This document shows, piece after piece, positions 2 to 44,277 of a stretch of 46,406 nucleotides of DNA. The number at the start of each line of letters is the position of its first letter. Position 1 is the stretch's first letter. The notes beneath the pieces were generated by a model. That model searched no databases. It was not told the DNA's origin and worked only from the letters and a program-made list of their open reading frames with translations. Position numbers and translations under genes: made by a program. Origin of the DNA: Lewinellaceae bacterium (GTDB lineage: Bacteria > Bacteroidota > Bacteroidia > Chitinophagales > Saprospiraceae); NCBI GenBank assembly GCA_947476195.1, contig CANJPT010000021.1, forward strand, positions 1 through 46,406, in the 5' to 3' direction.

Positions 2-115
2 GGGGGTTTAGAGGGTTTAAAAAGGGTAGAGGGTGTAGTAATAGTTCAAATCATTAATTTTTAGTGAAATGAAATGTACTACACCTTCTAACCGCTTTAA
101 ACCTTCTAAACCTCT
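2..115. repeat. Inverted arms of 9-nt tandem units
   Basis: Four 9-nt units of the form xxGGGTTTA (positions 2-37: GGGGGTTTA, GAGGGTTTA, AAAAGGGTA, GAGGGTGTA) face four units in the opposite orientation at 80-115 (TACACCTTC, TAACCGCTT, TAAACCTTC, TAAACCTCT). The arms are separated by about 42 nt of AT-rich core. The element could form a long imperfect hairpin. It has the same design as the 7- and 8-nt unit elements at 1376, 3460, 7426, 13384, 38327 and 39371. Confidence 0.7.
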
Positions 116-1369: not shown

Positions 1370-1452
1370 ACTTTGACGTATGAACTTTGGTGTATGATGT
1401 ATGAACTATGAAAATGCCAGGTGCTTTTTCTACATCATACATCATACATCAT
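1370..1452. repeat. Inverted arms of 7-nt tandem units (ATGTATG)
   Basis: Directly after the TAA of the preceding gene come five heptamers at 1376-1410 (ACGTATG, AACTTTG, GTGTATG, ATGTATG, AACTATG). After a ~20-nt core come three ACATCAT heptamers at 1432-1452 in the opposite sense. The left arm uses the same unit family as the blocks at 27377 and 32751. The rest of the spacer to 1635 is AT-rich and holds no gene. Confidence 0.65.
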
Positions 1453-3459: not shown

Positions 3460-3533
3460 GGAAAACCGGAGAACCGGAAAATGTTAAATTGCTATGGCAA
3501 CTCCCTCTTGGTTTTCCAGTTCCCCAATTCCCA
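3460..3533. repeat. Inverted arms of 8-nt tandem units
   Basis: Three octamers at 3460-3483 (GGAAAACC, GGAGAACC, GGAAAATG) are mirrored by three complementary octamers at 3510-3533 (GGTTTTCC, AGTTCCCC, AATTCCCA) around a 26-nt core. The element begins ten bases after the stop codon of the PKD protein. Confidence 0.6.
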
Positions 3534-6133: not shown

Positions 6134-6163
6134 TATTGAGTGAGTGAATGAGTGAGTGAATTG
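6134..6163. repeat. GAGT/GAAT tandem block abutting ppk1
   Basis: A run of 4/8-nt units (GAGTGAGT, GAATGAGT, GAGTGAAT) lies about ten nucleotides upstream of the ppk1 start codon. A 20-nt stretch beginning ATTGAGTGAGT is identical to the left arm of the element at 13384. No opposing arm is visible here. Confidence 0.65.
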
Positions 6164-6600: not shown

Positions 6601-7422
6601 ATGCAAGATTTCAAAATCAACCTAGACAGGGACCTCGTTTTCTTTGATGTGGAAACAACAGGCCTAAACGTTATCCGCGATCGTATTGTACAGATTGCGC
6701 TGGTGAAACTCCGCAAAGACGGCCAGGCCGCCGAAGAACTTTCGATGCTTATCAACCCGGGTATCCCGATCTCGGAAGAATCCATGGCGATTCACGGGAT
6801 CACGCCTAAAGACCTTGCCAATAAACCATCATTTTCGCAGGTAGCGCAAAAAATCTGGGATTTCATCGGGACTTCCGACCTTGGCGGCTACAACTCCAAT
6901 CGCTTTGATGTTCCTATGTTGATGGAAGAGTTTTCCCGCGTAGGCCTGGAATTCGATATTTCAAAGCGACGTTTGATTGATGCGCAGCGCATTTTCTATA
7001 AGATGGAACCTCGTACGCTGAAGGCGGCATATCGGCTCTATTGCCAAAAAGAACTCGAAGACGCGCATGATGCCCTGGCAGATGTGCGGGCTACGGTGGC
7101 GGTCTTCCGGGGTCAGATCCAAGCCTATGAAGGTAAAGACCTGCTCGACGAAGATGGCAATAGCGTGCCTGCACCTATCAAAAATGATATGCAGGCAATC
7201 CACGAATTTACCAATGACCTCCATTTTGTAGATGCCACCCAAAAGCTTCGGGTTCAGCCCGATGGCACCGTTGTGTTCAATTTTGGTAAATTTGTGGGTG
7301 AACCGGTGAAGACAGTCCTTGCCCGCGAACGCCATTACGCAGGCTGGATCGTTGAGAAGGAATTTTCTTCCCAAGTGAAACAGTACATCAAGCAGGTTGT
7401 GAAAGAGCTGGAAGGGAAATGA
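6601..7422 (+). CDS. DnaQ-like 3'-5' exonuclease, 273 aa
   Basis: A DEDDh exonuclease of the DNA polymerase III epsilon type. Exo I is 'FFDVETTGL' (Asp16, Glu18), Exo II 'GYNSNRFDVPML' (Asp103), and Exo III 'DAHDALADV' with His156 and Asp161. All catalytic residues are present. The nuclease domain covers residues 12-172. A C-terminal module (about 205-265, 'FGKFVGEPVKTVL...YAGWIVEKEF') is seen in related Bacteroidota exonucleases and may bind DNA. It could act in proofreading or repair, or on RNA; the substrate cannot be told from sequence. The ATG directly precedes the conserved domain. Its 3' end faces a cupin gene, with an inverted heptamer element filling the whole gap. Confidence 0.9.
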   Translation: MQDFKINLDRDLVFFDVETTGLNVIRDRIVQIALVKLRKDGQAAEELSMLINPGIPISEESMAIHGITPKDLANKPSFSQVAQKIWDFIGTSDLGGYNSNRFDVPMLMEEFSRVGLEFDISKRRLIDAQRIFYKMEPRTLKAAYRLYCQKELEDAHDALADVRATVAVFRGQIQAYEGKDLLDEDGNSVPAPIKNDMQAIHEFTNDLHFVDATQKLRVQPDGTVVFNFGKFVGEPVKTVLARERHYAGWIVEKEFSSQVKQYIKQVVKELEGK

Positions 7423-7425
7423 GAG

Positions 7426-7477
7426 TCAAGTTAAAAGTGATTGCCCAGGGCTTTTAACTTGATACTTTAAACTTTCA
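7426..7477. repeat. Inverted heptamer element (CTTTAAA) filling a convergent gap
   Basis: TCAAGTTAAAAGT (7426-7438) is the reverse complement of CTTTTAACTTGA further right. The right arm runs in heptamers CTTTTAA, CTTGATA, CTTTAAA, CTTTCAT (7451-7478) and overlaps the stop codon of the cupin gene. The stem could also terminate both convergent genes. Confidence 0.6.
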
Positions 7478-7969
7478 TCTTCCAAAATCATCCTGTACCC
7501 GCACGATATCTTCCTCATCGCTTGGATTATCGGCATCAGTGTGTTGCCAGATTTCTGCGACCATACCCCAATCAGACAGTCCGATCAGCCGGTGACGCTC
7601 TCCTTGTTTTAGTTTGATGATATCTCCGTCATATAGGGTATGTTGTTGCTTTTCTTCATTGGTGTCGCTGGTTACAACGCCTACGGAGCTACTGATACAT
7701 TTCCAAATTTCGGCGCGGCGATGATGATACTGCCAACTTAAACGGGCATGCGGAGCCACTAGCAGGATCTTTGGACTTAACTTATTGGTAATCTTTAGTG
7801 CATCCAGATTTTCATCCGGAAAATAGCACGCAGCAAATTGGGCTGCCTGTGTTTCATCAAGTACAAAGAAGCCACCCCAGGGCCGGGAATCATCCATCTT
7901 TACAACCTTGAAATCAAGCTGTGCAAGCATATTTGCAGCTTGTTCAAAAACTAATCCCTTTTGATCCAT
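7475..7969 (-). CDS. Cupin-fold protein, sugar-phosphate isomerase-like, 164 aa
   Basis: The protein resembles the cupin half of type II mannose-6-phosphate isomerases. 'WGGFFVLDE' near residue 31 and 'LLVAPHARLSWQYHHRRAEIWKC' near 70-90 supply the His/Glu cupin metal ligands. 'LKQGERHRLIGLSDWGMVAEIW' near 123-145 is the second cupin motif. The reading frame extends 24 codons further to a TTG, but the ATG at 7969 fits family length and lies downstream of a promoter-like CAACTTTG box at 8039-8046; the longer form would begin upstream of that box's expected transcription start. Metal-dependent sugar-phosphate isomerisation is a family-based guess. Confidence 0.75.
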   Translation of the reverse strand: MDQKGLVFEQAANMLAQLDFKVVKMDDSRPWGGFFVLDETQAAQFAACYFPDENLDALKITNKLSPKILLVAPHARLSWQYHHRRAEIWKCISSSVGVVTSDTNEEKQQHTLYDGDIIKLKQGERHRLIGLSDWGMVAEIWQHTDADNPSDEEDIVRVQDDFGR

Positions 7970-11392: not shown

Positions 11393-11467
11393 GCCTGCTT
11401 TTAGTGAGTATTCCCTCGTACCTTAATCCTTCCGGTCAAATTCTTCAACCCAAACGTCCCATTGCGC

Positions 11468-13390
11468 ATGCGAAACCGACTTATCCTCCTTGCCGTTTTG
11501 GCGGCATTTACGGCCCACTCCCAGATCAGCGAAGGCGGATTGCCTCCTAGTTTGCAGCCTGAAAACCAATCTGTTTTGGCTGGCAAAATGCCTTCTGCGC
11601 AGATGATTCCTGCCTTAGACGTAGAAAAGGCGCTGAGTGAAGATAGCCATACGCCTGGGCAAAACCGATTTGCAGCGCCCATTCTGACAGATATTTCCCT
11701 GGAGAATTCAGGTGCCTGGCAGACCCTCCCGAATGGGGATCGGGTCTGGTTATGCGCCCTTCGTTCTACAGGAGCAAAAGGCCTGACATTGATCTTTGAT
11801 CTGTTTAAATTGCCACCTGGCGCCAGTTTTTTTGCCTATGGGGCAAACCAACAAGTATTGGGAGCCTATACTGCGCAGAGCTGTTTACAGTCTGGCAAAT
11901 TTTTGATCGGGGTGTTGAAAGGCGAAATGGCTTATCTGGAACTTTACGAGCCGTCATCGGTACAAGGCCAAAGCAAGATCAGTATCAAGCGGGTAGATGT
12001 TGCCTACGACCAGAATTCTATGAACGGTGCAGAGGATTTTGGCAATGGATTGCCCTGCAATATCAACATCAATTGTACTGAAGGAAATGCGTGGCAGAGC
12101 CCCAAAAAAGGAATTGCACGAATCTTAATGGTTTTTTCGAATGGGGAAGGCTGGTGCAGTGGAACCCTCATTGCTAATACTTCCGGCACTTTTGAGCCTT
12201 ATTTCCTGACGGCACATCACTGCCAGATCATTGGTAATAACCCAGATTTTGGACTTTGGCGTTTTGATTTTGACTACGAATCTGCCAACTGTGCTAATCC
12301 TGCAGTAGAACCTGTGCCAAAATCGGTGTTGGGAAGTGAACGGATCTCCTATCGGTCAGAAACAGATTTTATGTTGTTGAAAATCAGCCCTATACCACTT
12401 AATTATGAAGTATATTTCAATGGCTGGAATCGTGATAACAACCAACTTACGGTAACGGCTAATTCAGTATATATTCACCATCCGCTTGGGGACATCAAGA
12501 AAATTTCGATCGATACGCAAGCCTCAATCATCTACCCAAACACACTTCCCTGGGGGGGCGTTTTCGGTACCAGCCCAGTTAATTCTCATTGGAAGAGTAT
12601 AACAGATATAGGCGTTTTTCAACCTGGTTCCTCCGGCAGCCCACTTATGGATGCCAATAAGCGTATTGTAGGCCAATTACATGGTGGAAGTACCGCAACA
12701 GGCAATGATTGCAAAGTGACCGGAGCCTACTTCGGACGCTTCAATTTGTCCTGGGATCAGGGAAGTGCCCCGGAATCCAGGATCAAAGAATGGTTGGATC
12801 CGACCAATACAGGGGCTGTTACGCAAAACGGGTATCTCCGGCCGGCAGTACAAGGATTTAGCATTGGTGGTAACATTAAAACCCATTGGGGAGTACCTAT
12901 AAAAGGGGTGAAGGTGGAAATTAGTGGTTCCGCATCGGCTTCTGTTTATTCAGATTCTCTCGGAAATTATCAATTTGTAAATATCCCGGTTGCCGGAAAT
13001 TACACCCTTAAATCCCTCAACGATGTTACTGACCTGAATGGTGTAACAACCTATGATCTGGTCCTGATCTCCAAACATACCCTGGGTATCGAAATACTCG
13101 ACTCACCCTGGAAAATGGTGGCAGCTGATATAAATCTAAGTAACTCGGTCACGACCAACGACATTGTAGAAGGCAGGAAGGTGATTTTGGGGATCAACCC
13201 CGGATTTCCAGCCAATACTTCCTGGCGTTTTTTTCCGGCGTATACCACATTTAATAACCCAGCGAATCCGTTCCAGGGGGGGCTGCCTCCAGATTATATA
13301 TCGGTCAATAATCTGCAGGGCAATTATATCGGGGCAGATTTCAAAGGGATTAAGGTGGGAGATTTGAATAATACGGCTAGTGGGAATTGA
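11468..13390 (+). CDS. Secreted trypsin-fold serine protease with dockerin-like tail
   Basis: The signal peptide is residues 1-19 (MRNRLILLA... ending AHSQ); the ATG at 11468 is preferred to the TTG two codons upstream. The protease domain (about 205-445) resembles lysyl-endopeptidase-type S1 enzymes. The catalytic triad is His251 ('FLTAHHC'), Asp300 ('SETDFMLLK') and Ser389 ('QPGSSGSPL'). A carboxypeptidase-regulatory-like beta-sandwich follows at about 463-518. A two-repeat dockerin-like module follows at about 520-575 ('LNGVTTYDLVLISKH', 'AADINLSNSVTTNDIV'). The same module sits in the 982-aa surface protein at 18377. Unlike the other exported proteins here it has no T9SS sorting domain: the frame ends at 'GDLNNTASGN', and the stop codon lies inside a GAGT/GAAT repeat block, suggesting loss of the C-terminus. 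Confidence 0.87.
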   Translation: MRNRLILLAVLAAFTAHSQISEGGLPPSLQPENQSVLAGKMPSAQMIPALDVEKALSEDSHTPGQNRFAAPILTDISLENSGAWQTLPNGDRVWLCALRSTGAKGLTLIFDLFKLPPGASFFAYGANQQVLGAYTAQSCLQSGKFLIGVLKGEMAYLELYEPSSVQGQSKISIKRVDVAYDQNSMNGAEDFGNGLPCNININCTEGNAWQSPKKGIARILMVFSNGEGWCSGTLIANTSGTFEPYFLTAHHCQIIGNNPDFGLWRFDFDYESANCANPAVEPVPKSVLGSERISYRSETDFMLLKISPIPLNYEVYFNGWNRDNNQLTVTANSVYIHHPLGDIKKISIDTQASIIYPNTLPWGGVFGTSPVNSHWKSITDIGVFQPGSSGSPLMDANKRIVGQLHGGSTATGNDCKVTGAYFGRFNLSWDQGSAPESRIKEWLDPTNTGAVTQNGYLRPAVQGFSIGGNIKTHWGVPIKGVKVEISGSASASVYSDSLGNYQFVNIPVAGNYTLKSLNDVTDLNGVTTYDLVLISKHTLGIEILDSPWKMVAADINLSNSVTTNDIVEGRKVILGINPGFPANTSWRFFPAYTTFNNPANPFQGGLPPDYISVNNLQGNYIGADFKGIKVGDLNNTASGN

Positions 13391-13863
13391 GTGAGTGAAT
13401 GAGTGAATGAGAGAATTAGTGAGTGAGTGAATGAGTGAGGGAACAACGCTACCTAAACTTGAAGCCTAATTCAAATGACGAAAGAAGAGTTTATTGAAAA
13501 AATGAGACAACGCACCAAGAAATTGGCTGTAGATGTCATAAGTTTTCTATGCGGACTTTCTCCGCACAAAGCGATGAGGGTGATTGAATATCAGCTAACC
13601 AAAGCTGTGACTTCAGTGGCTGCCAACTAAAGAGCCTCATGCAGGGCACGTTCACAAGCAGAGTTTCATGCTAAAATGAGTATTGTTGTTGAAGAAGCCG
13701 ATGAGTGCTTATTTTGGCTTGAAATGATTGGAGACCTCCAAATTGACCAAAGCCCTCAGTTGAAATATTTGCAAAATGAAGCCCTTTAGATCCTAAAAAT
13801 TTGCTCAAAAGCACGAAGCAATTCATAACAACCAATACTCATTCACCCATTCACTCACTCACC
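13384..13863. mobile_element. Repeat-bounded element carrying a four-helix-bundle gene
   Basis: The left arm (13384-13441) is a run of GAGTGAGT/GAATGAGT-type units; the right arm (13839-13863) is the complementary ATTCACTC/ACTCACCC series. Between them lies only a broken S23-type four-helix-bundle gene and short flanks. The left arm supplies the stop codon of the upstream protease, and the right arm ends three bases before the ATG of pepT. The layout is that of a cargo gene between inverted short-tandem-repeat arms. That it moves, or ever moved, is inferred from layout only. Confidence 0.55.
13475..13789 (+). pseudogene. Four-helix-bundle (S23/IVS-type) protein, one in-frame stop
   Basis: Codons 1-51 from the ATG at 13475 read MTKEEFIEKMRQRTKKLAVD... 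and end '..TKAVTSVAAN'. A TAA stop (13628-13630) follows, then the same frame continues 'RASCRARSQAEFHAKMSIVV' and 'EEADECLFWLEMIG' to a TAG at 13787. Intact family members have 'SVGANYRAACRARSRAEF' at this point, so the TAA replaces a Tyr codon (TAC or TAT) by one substitution. No other frame change is needed over 104 codons. The family (TIGR02436-like, also in 23S rRNA intervening sequences and related to the DGR accessory protein Avd) has ~120 residues, so the gene was nearly full length. Read-through or a sequencing error cannot be excluded. Confidence 0.8.
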
Positions 13864-13865
13864 CA

Positions 13866-15101
13866 ATGCAGCACACCGCAAAAGAAAGATTCCTTCAATA
13901 CGTCACCATTGACACCCAAAGTGACCCGAATAGCCCGACACAACCCAGTACAGAAAAGCAAAAGAACCTTGGCCATATACTCGTGAAAGAGCTTTCGGCG
14001 ATGGGCATAACGGACGCACATTTGGACGAATTCGGATATGTGTATGCTACCATTCCAGCCAATTCAGATAAAAAAGTGCCGGTCATTTGTTTTTGCTCGC
14101 ACATGGATACCTCGCCTGACTGCTCCGGCGAAGGCGTAAAGCCCATCGTTCATGCCAATTACAAAGGCCAGGATCTGGTGCTTCCCGACGACAAATCAGT
14201 GGTGATTCGTATGCAGGATCATCCGGATCTGAAAGCGCAGATCGGGAATGACATCATCACTGCTAGTGGCAGCACCTTACTTGGAGCTGACAACAAAGCA
14301 GGTTTGGCCGCCATCATGAGCGCAGCCCAGATATTGCTGACCAACAAACAATTAAAGCACGGAAAGATCCGGATCCTTTTTACCCCCGACGAAGAAATTG
14401 GTCGCGGCGTAGATAAGGTGGATATGAAAAAACTCGGTGCGAAATTTGGCTATACCATTGACGGTGAAACCGCAGGGAGTATTGAAAACGAGACCTTTAG
14501 TGCAGATGGAGCCGTGGTGACCATTCATGGGATCTCTGCGCACCCGGGCTTTGCAAAAGGCAAAATGGAAAATGCACTTAAAATTGCTGCCCGTATTGTG
14601 GCCAAATTTCCGGACAAACTCAGCCCCGAACATACCGACGGTATGCAAGGCTTTATTCACCCTGTCCACATGGAAGGGAATATTGAAAAAGCGACCATCA
14701 AACTCATCCTCCGCGACTTTACCGAGGCAGGTCTGAAACGACATGGCAAAACTTTGCAGCGCATCGTGGACACCGCGATTCAGCCGTTTCCGAACAGCCG
14801 CGCAGAGGTTAAGATCAGCGAGCAATACCGCAACATGGGCAAAGTGTTGCGCCGGCATCCGCAAGTCGTGGCCAATGCGCTGGAAGCCCTCAAACGCGCT
14901 GGATTTCCGAGTCCGATCCAAAGCAGTATTCGCGGCGGCACGGATGGCTCCCGTTTGTCATTTATGGGTTTGCCTTGCCCGAATCTTTTTGCGGGAGAGC
15001 ATGCATTCCACTCCAAACAGGAATGGGTCTCTGTGCAGGACATGGATAAAGCTGCTGAGACCATGGTACATCTGGCACAGGTCTGGGAAGAAAATGCTTG
15101 A
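13866..15101 (+). CDS. pepT: Peptidase T (tripeptide aminopeptidase)
   Basis: PepT is a cytoplasmic M20B di-zinc aminopeptidase that removes the N-terminal residue of tripeptides. The length (411 aa) is typical. Metal ligands are in place: His79 ('FCSHMDTSPD'), Asp142 ('GADNKAG'), Asp199 ('YTIDGE') and His379 ('AGEHAFHS'). The catalytic pair is Asp81 and Glu176, with Glu177 ('TPDEEIGRG') the remaining metal ligand. The dimerisation lid covers about 208-320. No signal peptide is present. The ATG lies three bases after a TCACTCACCC repeat arm, so native upstream regulatory sequence may have been replaced. Confidence 0.96.
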   Translation: MQHTAKERFLQYVTIDTQSDPNSPTQPSTEKQKNLGHILVKELSAMGITDAHLDEFGYVYATIPANSDKKVPVICFCSHMDTSPDCSGEGVKPIVHANYKGQDLVLPDDKSVVIRMQDHPDLKAQIGNDIITASGSTLLGADNKAGLAAIMSAAQILLTNKQLKHGKIRILFTPDEEIGRGVDKVDMKKLGAKFGYTIDGETAGSIENETFSADGAVVTIHGISAHPGFAKGKMENALKIAARIVAKFPDKLSPEHTDGMQGFIHPVHMEGNIEKATIKLILRDFTEAGLKRHGKTLQRIVDTAIQPFPNSRAEVKISEQYRNMGKVLRRHPQVVANALEALKRAGFPSPIQSSIRGGTDGSRLSFMGLPCPNLFAGEHAFHSKQEWVSVQDMDKAAETMVHLAQVWEENA

Positions 15102-25985: not shown

Positions 25986-27377
25986 ATGAACAGATTTCTA
26001 TCCTTTTGGCTGATCTCAGCGTATTTATACCTTTCTCCTAATTGGCTTTCAGCTCAATCTCCGATACTCGAAGGCTATATACAGGAAGGCTTGTCCGCCA
26101 ATCTTGGACTCAAACAACAAACCCTTTACATCGCAAAAGCCCAGGAAGGAGTACGGCAGTCCAAAGCTTTGGGAAAACCCAAACTCACCTTTGACGCCAA
26201 TTATACCGTGGCAGGAGGCGGCCGGAAAATTGATTTCCCAATCGGTGACCTGCTCAATGATGTCTACGGTAACCTGAACGCATTGAATGCAGTGCCCGGT
26301 AATTTGCCACCGGGAGTGATCCCCGGGCAATTTCCGACCCTGGAAAATCAGCTGATCCAATTCCTGCCCAACAATTTTCAGGAAACAAAAGTCAGCTTTG
26401 CCTATCCGATCTTCAATACCGACCTAAAATACAACCGTCAGATACAGGGCTATCTATTGCAAAGTAAATCAGCCGGAAAAGCTGCTACCGAACTTGAACT
26501 TCGCTACCAGATAACAGAAGCTTATTTGAATTACCTCCGCGTTTTGGAAGCTGAAAAGATCTGGATCAACGCCAAAACTGTCCTGACCGAACTCCGTCGC
26601 TTTAATGAAAGCCTGGTTAAAAATAATGTGGCCACCCGGGATGTGATCGCTACGGCTGATTACGAACTCAGTAAGGCTGACAACGAGATCTTTAAATTTA
26701 AAAGCCAGCAAAACACCGCCCGGGCATACTTCAACTACCTCATCAACAAAGATCTGCAAACAGAAGTAGTGGCAGATACGGCCCTGCTTCGATCTGTTTT
26801 GCCAGGCTACCAGCCTTCAGAACTGGTGCAGCAGAGTCTGAGCAATCGCCCTGAATTTGCCGCGCTACAGGCCGGTCAGCAAGCAGCTGAAACCGATATT
26901 CGTCGCAATGCGGCCAATTCGAAGCTTCCGGATTTTTATCTGGGTGGTTCTCTGGGTTTTCAGGGTTTTGGCTACAAATTCAATCAGGACCAATTGTACG
27001 CTTTGGCTCAGGTAGGATTGAGCTACGATCTTTTTGACGGGGGAATGCGCAAAAGCAAAACGCAGGAAGCCAGGCTTCAGGCCGAAGGCGTCCGTACCCA
27101 GACGGAGCAGGTGAAACAACAGATCTCTTTACAGGTCACCTCGGCCTGGAATGAGCTGGAAGCCGCCCAAAATGCTTTCAAAAGTGCGAAAGTAGGGCTG
27201 GGCGCAGCAGAAGAAACCTTTCGCATTCTAAACAACAAATACCGGGCGAATCAGGTACTGCTGCTTGAGTTTCTGGATGCGCAAAACAGGGTCACGACTG
27301 CAAAATTGCAACAGTTATTGGCCTGGTCGGAAGTGCTGGTGAAAGAAGCTAGTCTTCGCAAAGCTGCTGGGTTGTAG
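25986..27377 (+). CDS. TolC-family outer-membrane efflux protein
   Basis: The outer-membrane channel component of a tripartite efflux pump. The signal peptide is residues ~1-24 (ending WLSAQS). The mature protein (to 463 aa) shows the two OEP repeats with long coiled-coil helices. The first half contains 'GLKQQTLYIAKAQEGVRQSKALGKPKL' (broken here at usual TolC positions) and 'VSFAYPIFNTDLKYNRQ'; the second half has 'AQVGLSYDLFDGGMRKSKTQEARLQ' and 'LLLEFLDAQNRVTTAKLQ', both family signatures. Its stop codon overlaps the first unit of a GAACTAT heptamer block. It precedes the adaptor gene by 125 bp in the same orientation. Confidence 0.93.
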   Translation: MNRFLSFWLISAYLYLSPNWLSAQSPILEGYIQEGLSANLGLKQQTLYIAKAQEGVRQSKALGKPKLTFDANYTVAGGGRKIDFPIGDLLNDVYGNLNALNAVPGNLPPGVIPGQFPTLENQLIQFLPNNFQETKVSFAYPIFNTDLKYNRQIQGYLLQSKSAGKAATELELRYQITEAYLNYLRVLEAEKIWINAKTVLTELRRFNESLVKNNVATRDVIATADYELSKADNEIFKFKSQQNTARAYFNYLINKDLQTEVVADTALLRSVLPGYQPSELVQQSLSNRPEFAALQAGQQAAETDIRRNAANSKLPDFYLGGSLGFQGFGYKFNQDQLYALAQVGLSYDLFDGGMRKSKTQEARLQAEGVRTQTEQVKQQISLQVTSAWNELEAAQNAFKSAKVGLGAAEETFRILNNKYRANQVLLLEFLDAQNRVTTAKLQQLLAWSEVLVKEASLRKAAGL

Positions 27378-27425
27378 AACTATGAACTATGAACTATAAA
27401 CGGTGAACTATAAATGATGAACAAA
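27377..27425. repeat. GAACTAT heptamer block after tolC
   Basis: Seven in-phase heptamers: GAACTAT x3, AAACGGT, GAACTAT, AAATGAT, GAACAAA. The first G is also the last base of the tolC stop codon. No opposing arm is visible. The unit is shared with 32751 and with the left arm at 1376. Confidence 0.7.
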
Positions 27426-32098: not shown

Positions 32099-32181
32099 AA
32101 AAATCCGTGTCTCATCCGCGTTATCCGTGTTCCATTCGATCAAAGAAGAACACGGATAACGCGGATGAGACACGGATTTTT
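32099..32181. repeat. Perfect 33-bp inverted repeat between convergent genes
   Basis: Arms 32099-32131 and 32149-32181 are exact reverse complements (the left begins AAAAATCCGTGTCTC and ends TTATCCGTGTT) around a 17-nt loop. A-runs and T-runs at the ends let it serve as a bidirectional terminator for the pump and rfbC genes. Confidence 0.8.
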
Positions 32182-32746: not shown

Positions 32747-32750
32747 TTTT

Positions 32751-32778
32751 GAACTATGAACTATGATGTATGAACGGA
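32751..32778. repeat. GAACTAT heptamer block before rfbC
   Basis: In-phase heptamers GAACTAT, GAACTAT, GATGTAT, GAACGGA fill the space between the rfbC start codon (32746) and the stop codon of the next gene (32787). No opposing arm is seen. Confidence 0.65.
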
Positions 32779-38309: not shown

Positions 38310-38326
38310 GGGCTCAACCAGGACGG

Positions 38327-38415
38327 TTGGACATTTTGACCTTGGACGTTGGATTTGATTCTGCAAGTGCATGATTTTCAAGTTTTCAGCGACCAAGTCC
38401 AATGTCCAATAGTCA
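38327..38415. repeat. Heptamer element copy 1 (TTGGACR arms)
   Basis: Left arm heptamers TTGGACA, TTTTGAC, CTTGGAC, GTTGGAT (38327-38354); a core with GCAAGT, GCATGAT and TTTCAAG; right arm AAGTCCA, ATGTCCA, ATAGTCA (38395-38415). It fills the gap between the convergent panB and isomerase genes. It aligns heptamer by heptamer, in the same orientation, with the element at 39371. Confidence 0.8.
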
Positions 38416-38420
38416 GGCGG

Positions 38421-39308
38421 CTACCAAGTCAGCTTCAAAAAATTCTCCCGCGCCCGCTTCACGCCATCCATGGGCGTGCTGAGATAGTGCTCTAGTTCAA
38501 TGATATAGTGTTGAAAGCCAGCAAGTTGACTTTGGCGAAAGATGCTGACAAAATCGATCGTACCATCTCCAAATTCAATGGTTTGGTGGGGTTCAGAAGC
38601 GGCCAGGTCTTTGGCATGGCAAAGCTCCCAACGACCTGGATAAAGTCTAAACCAATCCAGCGGGTTATTTTTTGCAAAGCAGACCCAATAGATGTCCATT
38701 TCCATGGCAAGGATTTTGGGGTCAATTTCATGCAGCAGCCACTCGATGAGCAAACGACCGTCAGGGCCTCGCTGTATGTATTCAAAATCGTGGTTATGAT
38801 AGCCAAAACGAATGCCAGCTTTTTGGGCATACTCGGCTCCGGCTGTGATTAGTTTGACAATTTTCTCTACCTCAGGCCGCTCTTCTACGGGTACATAAGG
38901 GTAAATAACATATTTCTGGCCCATTTTTACGGCATCGTCAATGGCTTGTTTTGCGCGGTCTGACAGACTTTTTGTGCCCTCATTATAATCTGTCAGAGAA
39001 AAACCACAATGGCTGGACGGCATACTTAATCCATTGCTTGTGAGTACATTCATATACTCGGAGATGGGCATTCCAAACATTTTTCCATCGGCATAACCAT
39101 AAGCTTCCACCTCATTATAGCCCATCGCTGCGATGGCCTTTAAGGTGGCGATCGGATCTTTTGCCATGTTATCCCGAACCGAATATAATTGTAAGCCAAG
39201 GTGTCTGACGGGCTGTACAAGGTTTTGGATGGTTTTTGGCAAAAGGGCACTTCCTGCCAGGGCGAGTGCAGAGGTTTTTAGGAATTCTCGACGAGGTGTA
39301 GTATACAT
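38421..39308 (-). CDS. TAT-exported sugar phosphate isomerase/epimerase family protein
   Basis: The protein is 295 aa from the ATG at 39308; a TTG seven codons upstream is less likely. It starts with a twin-arginine signal ('TPRREFLKTSALALAGSALL', residues 4-23), so it is folded before export. The mature part is an AP-endonuclease-2/xylose-isomerase-like TIM barrel. Metal-site-like motifs include 'GYNEVEAYGY' near 63-72, 'MPSSHCGF' near 91-98, 'FGYHNHDFEY' near 166-175, 'MEMDIYWV' near 203-210 and 'FIIELEHY'-like 'YIIELEHYLS' near 267-276. TAT-exported members of this family are common in Bacteroidota beside sugar-acid and oxidoreductase genes. Substrate unknown. Heptamer element copies flank it on both sides. 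Confidence 0.88.
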   Translation of the reverse strand: MYTTPRREFLKTSALALAGSALLPKTIQNLVQPVRHLGLQLYSVRDNMAKDPIATLKAIAAMGYNEVEAYGYADGKMFGMPISEYMNVLTSNGLSMPSSHCGFSLTDYNEGTKSLSDRAKQAIDDAVKMGQKYVIYPYVPVEERPEVEKIVKLITAGAEYAQKAGIRFGYHNHDFEYIQRGPDGRLLIEWLLHEIDPKILAMEMDIYWVCFAKNNPLDWFRLYPGRWELCHAKDLAASEPHQTIEFGDGTIDFVSIFRQSQLAGFQHYIIELEHYLSTPMDGVKRARENFLKLTW

Positions 39309-39370
39309 GATTGACAAATTTTGCCGCAAGAAAAGAAAAAGAGTTGAATTGTGCGTCTTCTTATAGGTTA

Positions 39371-39466
39371 TTGGATATTTTGACAGTGGACGTTAGACCT
39401 GATCCGGCAAATGCATGCTTTTCAAGTATTTAGAGTGCAAGTCCAACGTCCAACGTCCATCGTCAA
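39371..39466. repeat. Heptamer element copy 2 (TTGGACR arms)
   Basis: Left arm TTGGATA, TTTTGAC, AGTGGAC, GTTAGAC (39371-39398); core with GGCAAAT, GCATGCT, TTTCAAG; right arm AAGTCCA, ACGTCCA, ACGTCCA, TCGTCAA (39439-39466). By eye roughly three quarters of positions match copy 1, with no gap between the arms. Confidence 0.8.
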
Positions 39467-39510
39467 AATGTTCAGTAGTCTGGTCTTTATCACTTTTCAT
39501 GTCATCCTCC

Positions 39511-42916: not shown

Positions 42917-44215
42917 ATGAAAAGTTATTCACTGCTCTGTCTAAACCTTCTATTTATTACACCCCTTTTGGCTCAGCCTGGGTTAAAACGTCAGGTAGAC
43001 CAGATGTCTGATGTTATCGAGCCCCAAGTCGTAGCCTGGCGGCGCGATTTTCACCAAAATCCTGAACTCTCCAACCGCGAGTTTAAGACCGCTGAAAAAG
43101 TAGCGGCTCATCTTCGTTCGCTTGGCATGGAAGTCAGAACAGGCGTAGCTAAAACAGGGGTTGTAGGCATTTTGAAAGGAGGGAAGCCCGGGCCTGTTGT
43201 CGGTCTTCGCGCCGATATGGATGCGCTGCCGGTGTCTGAACGGGTGGATCTGCCTTTCAAATCAACCGTAAAATCTGAATACAACGGAGGGCCGGTAGGG
43301 GTTATGCACGCTTGTGGCCACGATATGCATGTGGCTATCCTCATGGGCGTGGCAGAGGTGCTTTCCAAGATGAAAGACCAGCTTGCAGGGACGGTCGTGT
43401 TTGTATTCCAGCCTGCCGAAGAAGGTCCTCCCGGCGCCGAAGAAGGTGGTGCGTCACTCATGATTAAAGAAGGCCTGCTCACGGATACAAAAATGGAGGT
43501 CATGTTTGGCCTGCATATCAATTCTGCCACCGAAGTAGGCAAAATAAAATACCGTTCGGGTGGCACCATGGCGGCCTCAGATTGGTTTACCATCACAGTA
43601 AACGGCAAACAGACACATGGTTCGACGCCCTGGAACGGCATAGACCCCATCGTGGTAAGCGCCGAGATTATCCAGGGTTTGCAGACCATTGTTAGTCGCC
43701 AGGTAGACCTGACCGAATTCCCGGCCGTGATCACAGTGGGCAAAATTACCAGTGGCGTGCGTGCCAATATCATCCCTGAATTGGCTGAAATGGTGGGTAC
43801 TATCCGGACGCTCGACACGTCTATGCAGCGCCTTATTCAGAAAAAAATTGAGCTTACCGTCACCAAAATTGCCGAGAGCGCGGGGGCAAACGCGGAGGTT
43901 CGCTTTGAGAACAAGACCCCTATCAATTATAACAATCCTGCCCTCACGACCTGGGCACTCACTTCCCTGCGGGAAGCAGCGGGACCTGCCAACGTATTGG
44001 AAAACAAGCCTCAAACCGGCGCGGAGGACTTTGGTTTTTTTGCCCAAAAAATACCCTGTTTTTACTTTTTCCTGGGCGGAATGCCCAAGGGTGGGGATGA
44101 GAAAAAAGCGCCCTCCCACCACACGCCAGACTTTTTTGTGGACGAAAGTGGCATGAAATTAGGGGTGAAGATTTTTTGTTACCTCGTTTTGGATTATTTT
44201 TCCAAACCACGTTAG
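42917..44215 (+). CDS. Exported M20-family amidohydrolase (hippurate-hydrolase-like)
   Basis: The signal peptide is residues ~1-20 (ending PLLAQ). The body (to 432 aa) has the M20D amidohydrolase motifs: 'RRDFHQNPELS' (42-52), 'VGLRADMDALPV' (95-106), 'MHACGHDMHVA' (130-140) with metal ligands Cys133 and His135, 'FQPAEEGPPGAEEGG' (164-178) with Glu168/Glu169, 'GLHI' His200, and a late 'PSHHTPDFF' near 398-406. These enzymes hydrolyse N-acyl amino acids or aryl amides. The export signal places it in the periplasm or outside the cell. It is co-transcribed with the metallopeptidase-like lipoprotein (1-bp gap). Confidence 0.92.
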   Translation: MKSYSLLCLNLLFITPLLAQPGLKRQVDQMSDVIEPQVVAWRRDFHQNPELSNREFKTAEKVAAHLRSLGMEVRTGVAKTGVVGILKGGKPGPVVGLRADMDALPVSERVDLPFKSTVKSEYNGGPVGVMHACGHDMHVAILMGVAEVLSKMKDQLAGTVVFVFQPAEEGPPGAEEGGASLMIKEGLLTDTKMEVMFGLHINSATEVGKIKYRSGGTMAASDWFTITVNGKQTHGSTPWNGIDPIVVSAEIIQGLQTIVSRQVDLTEFPAVITVGKITSGVRANIIPELAEMVGTIRTLDTSMQRLIQKKIELTVTKIAESAGANAEVRFENKTPINYNNPALTTWALTSLREAAGPANVLENKPQTGAEDFGFFAQKIPCFYFFLGGMPKGGDEKKAPSHHTPDFFVDESGMKLGVKIFCYLVLDYFSKPR

Positions 44216-44277
44216 TCCACCGTCTACCGTCTACCGTCTACCGTCCACCGTCCACCGTCCACCGTCCACCCATCACC
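44215..44277. repeat. Nine in-phase GTCYACC heptamers
   Basis: GTCCACC, GTCTACC x3, GTCCACC x4, CATCACC run without interruption from the stop codon of the amidohydrolase to 13 bases before the PolX start codon. It is the longest and cleanest tandem array in the window; no inverted arm is present. Confidence 0.9.

Follow-up and report, generated by a model that had tools for sequence, protein, structure and literature searches.

The window analysed here, the whole 46,406-nucleotide stretch of contig CANJPT010000021.1 (assembly GCA_947476195.1) from a Lewinellaceae bacterium of the Bacteroidota, carries between a protease-like gene and pepT a single gene of the S23/four-helix-bundle family (PF05635, TIGR02436) enclosed by inverted arrays of short tandem units. 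The upstream host gene (11462..13390, + strand) has a trypsin-like peptidase domain scoring below the Pfam cut-off, and its TGA stop codon (13388-13390) sits within the left, 5′ arm (13384..13441, +). This arm consists of 8-nt tandem units, GAGTGAGT/GAATGAGT, and is recognized from the sequence itself, from Tandem Repeats Finder (TRF) and from its inverted match to the right arm. The S23 gene follows (13475..13825, +), and the right, 3′ arm (13837..13865, +; TRF and inverted match), a C-rich complement of the left one, runs up to the start codon of the downstream host gene, pepT (peptidase T; 13866..15101, +).

The structure at the locus is real. TRF reports arrays at 13388-13439 and 13837-13865, the arms match in inverted orientation over 24 nt at 96% and over 29 nt at 83%, and the inverted-repeat score of 22.5 compares with a maximum of 15.5 among 15 dinucleotide shuffles. 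A preliminary description, made from the letters of the window, had proposed inverted short-tandem-repeat arms around a four-helix-bundle gene, with the protease stop codon inside the left arm and the right arm adjoining pepT, and all three points stand. The gene assignment stands as well (43.9 bits against PF05635, curated cut-off 33.8), but the description missed that this copy is a pseudogene, with one TAA (13628-13630) and one TAG (13787-13789) in frame; as a whole, that observation is partly confirmed. In genome G005 there is an intact orthologue, sharing 85% identity with the window copy, which exceeds both curated cut-offs (TIGR02436, 74.3 versus 24 bits; PF05635, 50.8 versus 33.8 bits). 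Solved structures of S23 relatives are 2gsc and 2rld, the closest match in the Protein Data Bank being 2gsc (XCC0516).

S23 is the only gene between the arms, and the HUH/Y1 transposase gene of systems such as REPIN/RAYT is absent from that interval. An S23 open reading frame (ORF) between terminal inverted repeats is, on the other hand, what characterizes the intervening sequences (IVS) of rRNA genes. The site here is not a 23S rRNA gene, there is no rRNA match in the window, and Rfam has no known RNA at the element. The window copy is probably a small mobile element in decay, in which a single S23 gene is enclosed by inverted arrays of tandemly repeated short units.

Inverted tandem arms at S23 genes

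Arms were scored by aligning the left flank locally with the reverse-complemented right flank and taking the best alignment, and counted as tandem when the score was at least 15 and the self-match at least 0.5 in both arms. The genus set comprised seven S23 loci from the window's own genome and, from each of 29 further genomes, the top match (34 of 36 used, two being dropped for short flanks); HU genes (29 used, one of 30 dropped) and Y1 transposase genes (30) served as gene controls. For a wider view, we took the best 80 of 590 relatives in named genomes of many phyla, 57 of them outside Bacteroidota by record titles, with 276 offset windows within the same loci as controls.

Both arms were tandem and inverted at 23 of the 34 S23 loci of the genus and at none of the 29 HU or 30 Y1 loci. 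Among the best-scoring loci of the class and the phylum the figures were 16/30 and 15/26, and in the named set 45/80 (34/57 outside Bacteroidota) against 4/276 offset windows. By score alone, a value of at least 20 was reached in the genus by 28/34 S23, 0/29 HU and 15/30 Y1 loci, the Y1 repeats being non-tandem and similar to repetitive extragenic palindromic (REP) sequences; in the named set, 69/80 loci versus 32/276 offset windows scored at least 15, and 44/80 versus 4/276 at least 20. S23 genes are present in 232 of 296 sampled genomes of the phylum, and the class of S23 genes with arms spans many bacterial phyla and some archaea. The earlier expectation that arms are commoner at S23 genes than elsewhere is therefore borne out by these counts, and its interpretation as one element class is supported, except that the class is not confined to the window's group and extends to many phyla with a 7-nt period.

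Tandem arrays (self-match of at least 75%) were found in 188 of 344 flanks of 172 S23 loci, compared with 18 of 322 control windows. Period 7 prevailed in the S23 flanks (151/188) and also in the control arrays (16/18). The dinucleotide AG is present in 113 of the 151 heptamer consensus units, against a mean of 82 and a maximum of 99 in 500 letter shuffles of the units; when units are aligned on it, conservation is highest at A, at G and at the position that follows. The 5′ arm contains more G than C in 52 versus 4 named loci and in 61 versus 2 Bacteroidota loci of the first sets (score of at least 17), so that the G-rich strand faces inward at both ends.

It could be argued that the arms are ordinary microsatellites, grown by slippage in intergenic DNA, among which S23 genes lie by chance; arm unit and length do vary, and gene-less arrays are numerous. 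Such an origin is at odds with the specificity of the arms to S23 among the controls (the gene controls being HU and Y1 only), with the inward G-rich strand, with the convergent order of all gene-less pairs in genome G004 (27 versus 0, see below) and with the fact that, in the genus, S23 lineage and unit go together even at unrelated sites. The data disfavour this explanation, and we regard it as very improbable.

Copies, lineages and insertion sites

Within the genus, the identity of S23 proteins correlates with the similarity of their arms (Pearson 0.494, Mantel p = 0.0005; 29 loci, 404 pairs, restricted to sites whose flanks had no blastn match). The 15 pairs with at least 55% protein identity had a mean arm similarity of 0.58, versus 0.22. 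The correlation is weaker in the named set (r = 0.182, p = 0.0005, 68 loci). Along the S23 lineage of the window element, the unit read by eye is GTGAATGA at 100 and 68% identity (G005, G011), TTTTGAG at 56%, GTGAGAG at 47–49% and GGGAATAG at 44%; a locus at 40% (L403) has a different, mixed array, and for a partial one at 84% (L395, G033) no paired arms were obtained.

In 14 of 42 genomes an exact 15-mer of the window unit is present, with 157 copies in G011, 21 in G033, 19 in G022, 13 in G000, 8 in G005, 6 in G014, 4 in G024 and one in each of seven others. When copies in the elements' own arms are excluded, the four genomes with this S23 lineage (at least 68%) hold approximately 155 (G011), 18 (G033), 11 (G000) and 1 (G005). 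At least eight copies outside the element are thus found in three of these four genomes and in one of the 38 others (Fisher 0.0014, uncorrected for relatedness).

Near-identical S23 pairs were sought in 11 genomes chosen for having at least two S23 matches of similar score. Genome G004 holds two copies that are 96.4% identical over 499 nt, arms included, in unrelated flanks. One of them, used as query, matches at least 84 places in that genome, possibly a lower bound, since 40 of 214 first-look candidates were scored. Besides the two intact copies there are 39 clusters, 27 of them convergent pairs and 12 solo arrays, with none in the opposite order. One of the pairs is a degraded S23 copy; the other 26 and the 12 solo arrays have the same unit. 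In 18 loci that were fetched (two overlapping), only the degraded copy matched the S23 part beyond arm-like fragments, and by eye the inner parts of the gene-less loci differ. Within the genus, these counts and the multicopy window unit support the earlier suggestion that the short elements are non-autonomous forms.

A few gene-bearing copies accompanied by scattered gene-less inverted pairs are also typical of REPINs (REP doublets forming hairpins) and their mobilizing REP-associated tyrosine transposases (RAYTs). Taking the unit motif to define the ends, we saw no target-site duplication in any of 14 two-ended elements of G004; in this they differ from DDE insertion sequences (IS) and miniature inverted-repeat transposable elements (MITEs). 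The absence of duplication combined with hairpin ends suggests a single-stranded DNA or an RNA intermediate. The same two traits could mean that a Y1 (HUH) transposase moves the elements in trans, in the way RAYTs move REPINs, with S23 as an accessory, and Y1 matches are present in 34 of the 42 genomes of the genus. Five genomes (G017, G027, G028, G034 and G037) nevertheless have S23 but no Y1 match, which makes Y1 enzymes unlikely as a general mover, and the Y1 loci carry other, non-tandem palindromes; we give this alternative a small chance. The 30 Y1_Tnp loci (L067-L096) contain RAYT-like genes, half of them with non-tandem REP-like inverted repeats, some with GTAG, and constitute a second, unrelated system in the same genomes.

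Clean empty sites, the second expectation of the preliminary description, do exist: they were found in a different genus, at its fadB-thiolase junction, and not by comparing the window's own site with that of a close relative. Of 30 loci from 36 genomes of that genus, nine have S23 with arms and six have only 6–9 nt between stop and start codons; the contents of the remaining 15 differ, examples being other genes, remnants and short hairpins built of other units. The arm supplies the TAG stop codon in eight of the nine filled loci. At one such junction (L184) we noticed other small genes, by eye a nucleotidyltransferase/HEPN-like pair. Upstream of pepT (30 loci from 42 genomes of the window's genus), S23 occurs in three loci: the window, G005, whose gene is intact and whose arms have the same unit and are longer, and G011, where similar arms enclose S23 in reverse orientation. 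By eye, G001 and G010 keep a short piece of the right arm only, and in the rest there is no element, or there are short hairpins whose units are quite different; this reading left out L167 and most of L168.

In one further case (L011/L018), a single site with flanks approximately 95% identical in two genomes holds different S23 genes with different arm units, the result of either replacement or independent insertion. This site had prompted us to consider that the unit might derive from the host; we abandoned the idea since, within the genus, units go with S23 lineages.

Taken together, near-identical copies, gene-less relatives, empty sites and a unit tracking the S23 lineage within the genus provide good support for the mobility of the element. 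A different view would be that S23 is a conserved gene beneficial to the host and that its arms are regulatory hairpins, either insulators or autoregulation sites. The S23 protein is indeed kept by purifying selection at the fadB-thiolase site, as the low dN/dS of seven orthologues indicates (0.02–0.14 in 18 computable of 21 pairs; rough ratios, with dS mostly above 1). Two of the nine ORFs there (L197, L206) were excluded, being unlike the rest and apparently belonging to a second, adjacent S23 gene. Furthermore, one operon site holds S23 across genomes of several families of a class. A host gene is harder to reconcile with sharp presence and absence at one site within one genus, or with near-identical duplicates, pseudogenes and gene-less cognate arrays, and we find this view improbable.

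Orientation bears on a further alternative. Where neighbours are co-directional, S23 is in sense with them in 52/56 named and 28/31 class or phylum loci (80/87 together; orthologous duplicates and loci with short flanks excluded), which fits an element dependent on host transcription. The S23 elements could then be RNA-level intervening sequences, whose arms pair in the transcript and loop out S23, with excision by RNase III making insertion in operons or rRNA tolerable and mobility being secondary or extinct. Besides the sense orientation in tandem gene pairs outside the window's genus, such a role is favoured by the position of the elements, in the sites read, between the stop and start codons of co-directional genes, and by the Coxiella element, whose arm stem is cut by RNase III according to the part of that report consulted (PMC4990558). 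Pairing in RNA predicts tolerance of G.U mismatches; on the S23 sense strand, however, the arms show no excess of G.U over A.C, and the counts run in reverse (125 versus 166, p = 0.019; 137 versus 179, p = 0.021). Arm upkeep through RNA pairing alone is thus not supported. The own genus, in addition, shows no orientation bias, and at the pepT site of G011 the gene is inverted between like arms. We consider an RNA-level role as the primary explanation unlikely.

Relation to known systems and a possible mechanism

The closest anatomy in print is that of the rRNA IVS of Coxiella and Leptospira. As far as the consulted text of PMC4990558 goes, an S23p (PF05635) ORF lies there in the loop of terminal inverted repeats; the Coxiella IVS has it within a 28-bp terminal stem, shows tandem heptamers (GACAGAT) in variable number in its 5′ part, and its ORF is decaying. 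The preliminary description held that a role of this family in such repeats was not known to be described, and this does not stand, given that S23 within inverted repeats with heptamers is documented in that source for one rRNA IVS. By comparison with what is given there, the elements reported here occupy intergenic and operon sites instead of rRNA, have tandem arrays in both arms, and come with gene-less relatives, near-identical copies and lineage-specific units. Given the shared anatomy, we class them as a variant of the IVS, even though they are not located in rRNA. In the open literature we consulted, we found no account of a mobile class in which inverted heptamer arms enclose S23 genes.

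REPIN/RAYT systems (GTAG REP elements) are alike in having one small gene in inverted repeats, many gene-less inverted pairs and no target duplication. They differ in their HUH transposase, missing here, and in their GTAG palindrome, in place of which we find tandem units of 7–10 nt; the Y1 loci of the genus are also different from the S23 loci.

Avd of diversity-generating retroelements (DGRs) and S23 belong to the same protein family by comparison of structures 4DWL and 2GSC, according to the portion of PMC10053308 consulted. The elements differ from DGRs in having no reverse transcriptase, template or variable repeat between the arms, neighbouring genes not having been scanned for reverse transcriptases.

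Heptamer arrays have been reported elsewhere. In the available text of PMC4692102, GGGAATC heptamers of Xanthomonas are intergenic and tandem, form 70 and 75 convergent inverted pairs in two genomes, and are said to be generally not associated with mobile elements; PMC4679880, in its consulted part, describes intergenic tandem TAACTGA heptamers in Beggiatoaceae, with direct heptamers also in cyanobacteria and some Bacteroidetes. Neither source, as far as consulted, draws a link to an S23 gene. An S23 protein structure has been solved for Xanthomonas (PMC4990558, consulted in part). We predict that the arrays of Xanthomonas, Beggiatoaceae and cyanobacteria belong to the same class.

Judging from the sequences, we consider it fairly probable that we are dealing with a transposable element whose S23 protein recognizes its cognate arms. 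We hypothesize that S23, an Avd-like pentamer family, would bind the repeated unit of its own arms and deliver the element's hairpin (single-stranded DNA or RNA) to an enzyme acting in trans for insertion into intergenic DNA without target duplication. Outside the window's genus, sense insertion between co-directional genes would let S23 be expressed from the host transcript and render the insertion harmless. Gene-less elements with the same arms would be moved in trans, and the IVS of 23S rRNA would represent the same element at a site where RNase III cuts the stem.

Several observations weigh against this proposal. No transposition enzyme is encoded in the element or has been identified. A near-identical pair was found in only one of the 11 genomes searched (G004), four others having pairs at 66–69% DNA identity. 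The tandem condition was failed by 11/34 loci in the genus and 35/80 in the named set. Arm unit and S23 identity are uncorrelated in the class and phylum set (r = 0.040, p = 0.28, 45 loci). Genome G022, without this S23 lineage, has 19 copies of the window unit (in an assembly 77% complete), while G005, with an intact gene, keeps only one exact copy outside the element. Orientation in the own genus is unbiased (9/17 sense; 6/11 for Y1 loci). Many S23 copies (sets A and B) have stayed at one site through descent, and a host function is therefore possible for some S23 genes. Finally, rRNA matches were found in none of 79 named loci (80 minus L328). That rRNA IVS are the same element inside rRNA genes is still probable in our opinion, a link resting on the literature and the shared gene given that no named locus is in rRNA.

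It is possible, if short of probable, that all of this describes a distinct class of transposable elements in many bacterial phyla and archaea. Its sole protein would be an Avd-like four-helix bundle, with which inverted short-unit arrays co-evolve, and gene-less families would be mobilized in trans; the heptamer arrays of Xanthomonas, cyanobacteria and Beggiatoaceae, for long without an explanation, would be members, as would rRNA IVS. Movement would involve a hairpin intermediate, for which S23, like Avd in DGRs, would perhaps recruit a reverse transcriptase as the copying enzyme; such a partner is an idea suggested by the Avd relationship (PMC10053308, consulted in part) and not a result. 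S23/IVP genes occur in very many genomes, and in the literature consulted we found no stated function for them. Cognate arms, joint copying and gene-less relatives would turn an orphan protein family, an rRNA curiosity and scattered heptamers into one testable system, in which the arms are a concrete candidate binding substrate for S23.

Other arrays, hairpins and S23 genes of the window and its genome

A solo array with the unit of the window element (TGAGTGAGTGAA), a gene-less relative of it, lies at 6137..6161 (+, TRF). With up to one mismatch, the own genome contains 44 copies of the unit (a few inside the element), against eight for the reversed pattern. Short inverted-arm elements without a gene are found at 5..112, with a GGTTTAGA unit and arms 86% complementary, and at 1388..1452, with a TATGATG-type unit. 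Two more, at 38327..38410 and 39371..39475, share GGACGTT/GGACATT units and, by eye, related spacers; the unit of the former is, by eye, that of S23 element L004 of the own genome.

The preliminary description listed six elements of this design besides the S23 one. Five exceeded the maximum of 40 shuffles each: 1-125 (29.5 versus 12.5), 1365-1465 (18.5 versus 10.5), 7420-7490 (12.0 versus 8.0), 38315-38425 (13.0 versus 11.0) and 39360-39480 (18.0 versus 9.0). At 7420-7490 there is a short palindrome without clear tandem units, and the candidate at 3460 scored 10.0, below its shuffle maximum of 12.0. Of the seven listed elements, then, not all convince. Because that description dictated where the six intervals lie, the comparison does not amount to a test across the genome. 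A census of arrays over 350 kb of the own genome used contigs picked for S23 content and is accordingly biased; we claim no rate from it.

Seven PF05635 matches (L001-L007) occur in the own genome. By eye, the first five have inverted tandem arms with five different units, and L006 is a fragment with a single arm. L007 (G000:C5:2511-2810; 1501-1800) has no arms and resembles the Avd of DGRs; by eye, it lies downstream of a protein end resembling a DGR variable protein, and it is probably a true Avd of such a retroelement.

A perfect 34-nt inverted repeat with a 15-nt loop and ATCCGTG/ATCCGCG units is located at 32099-32181 of the window, and similar hairpins were noted by eye in relatives, upstream of their pepT genes (L165, L170). 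Solo tandem arrays with GTCCACC and GAACTAT units, at 44215-44277, 27377-27422 and 32750-32775, are probably single arms; GTCCACC is the complement of the ACGGTGG unit in S23 elements L013, L015 and L019. A second dispersed palindromic element, of the CGTAGAGTACACC / GCCCGTCGTAG...CTACGACGGGC type, was observed by eye nested within several heptamer-arm pairs (flanks of L026 and L028; L353, L355, L360 and L366 of G004).

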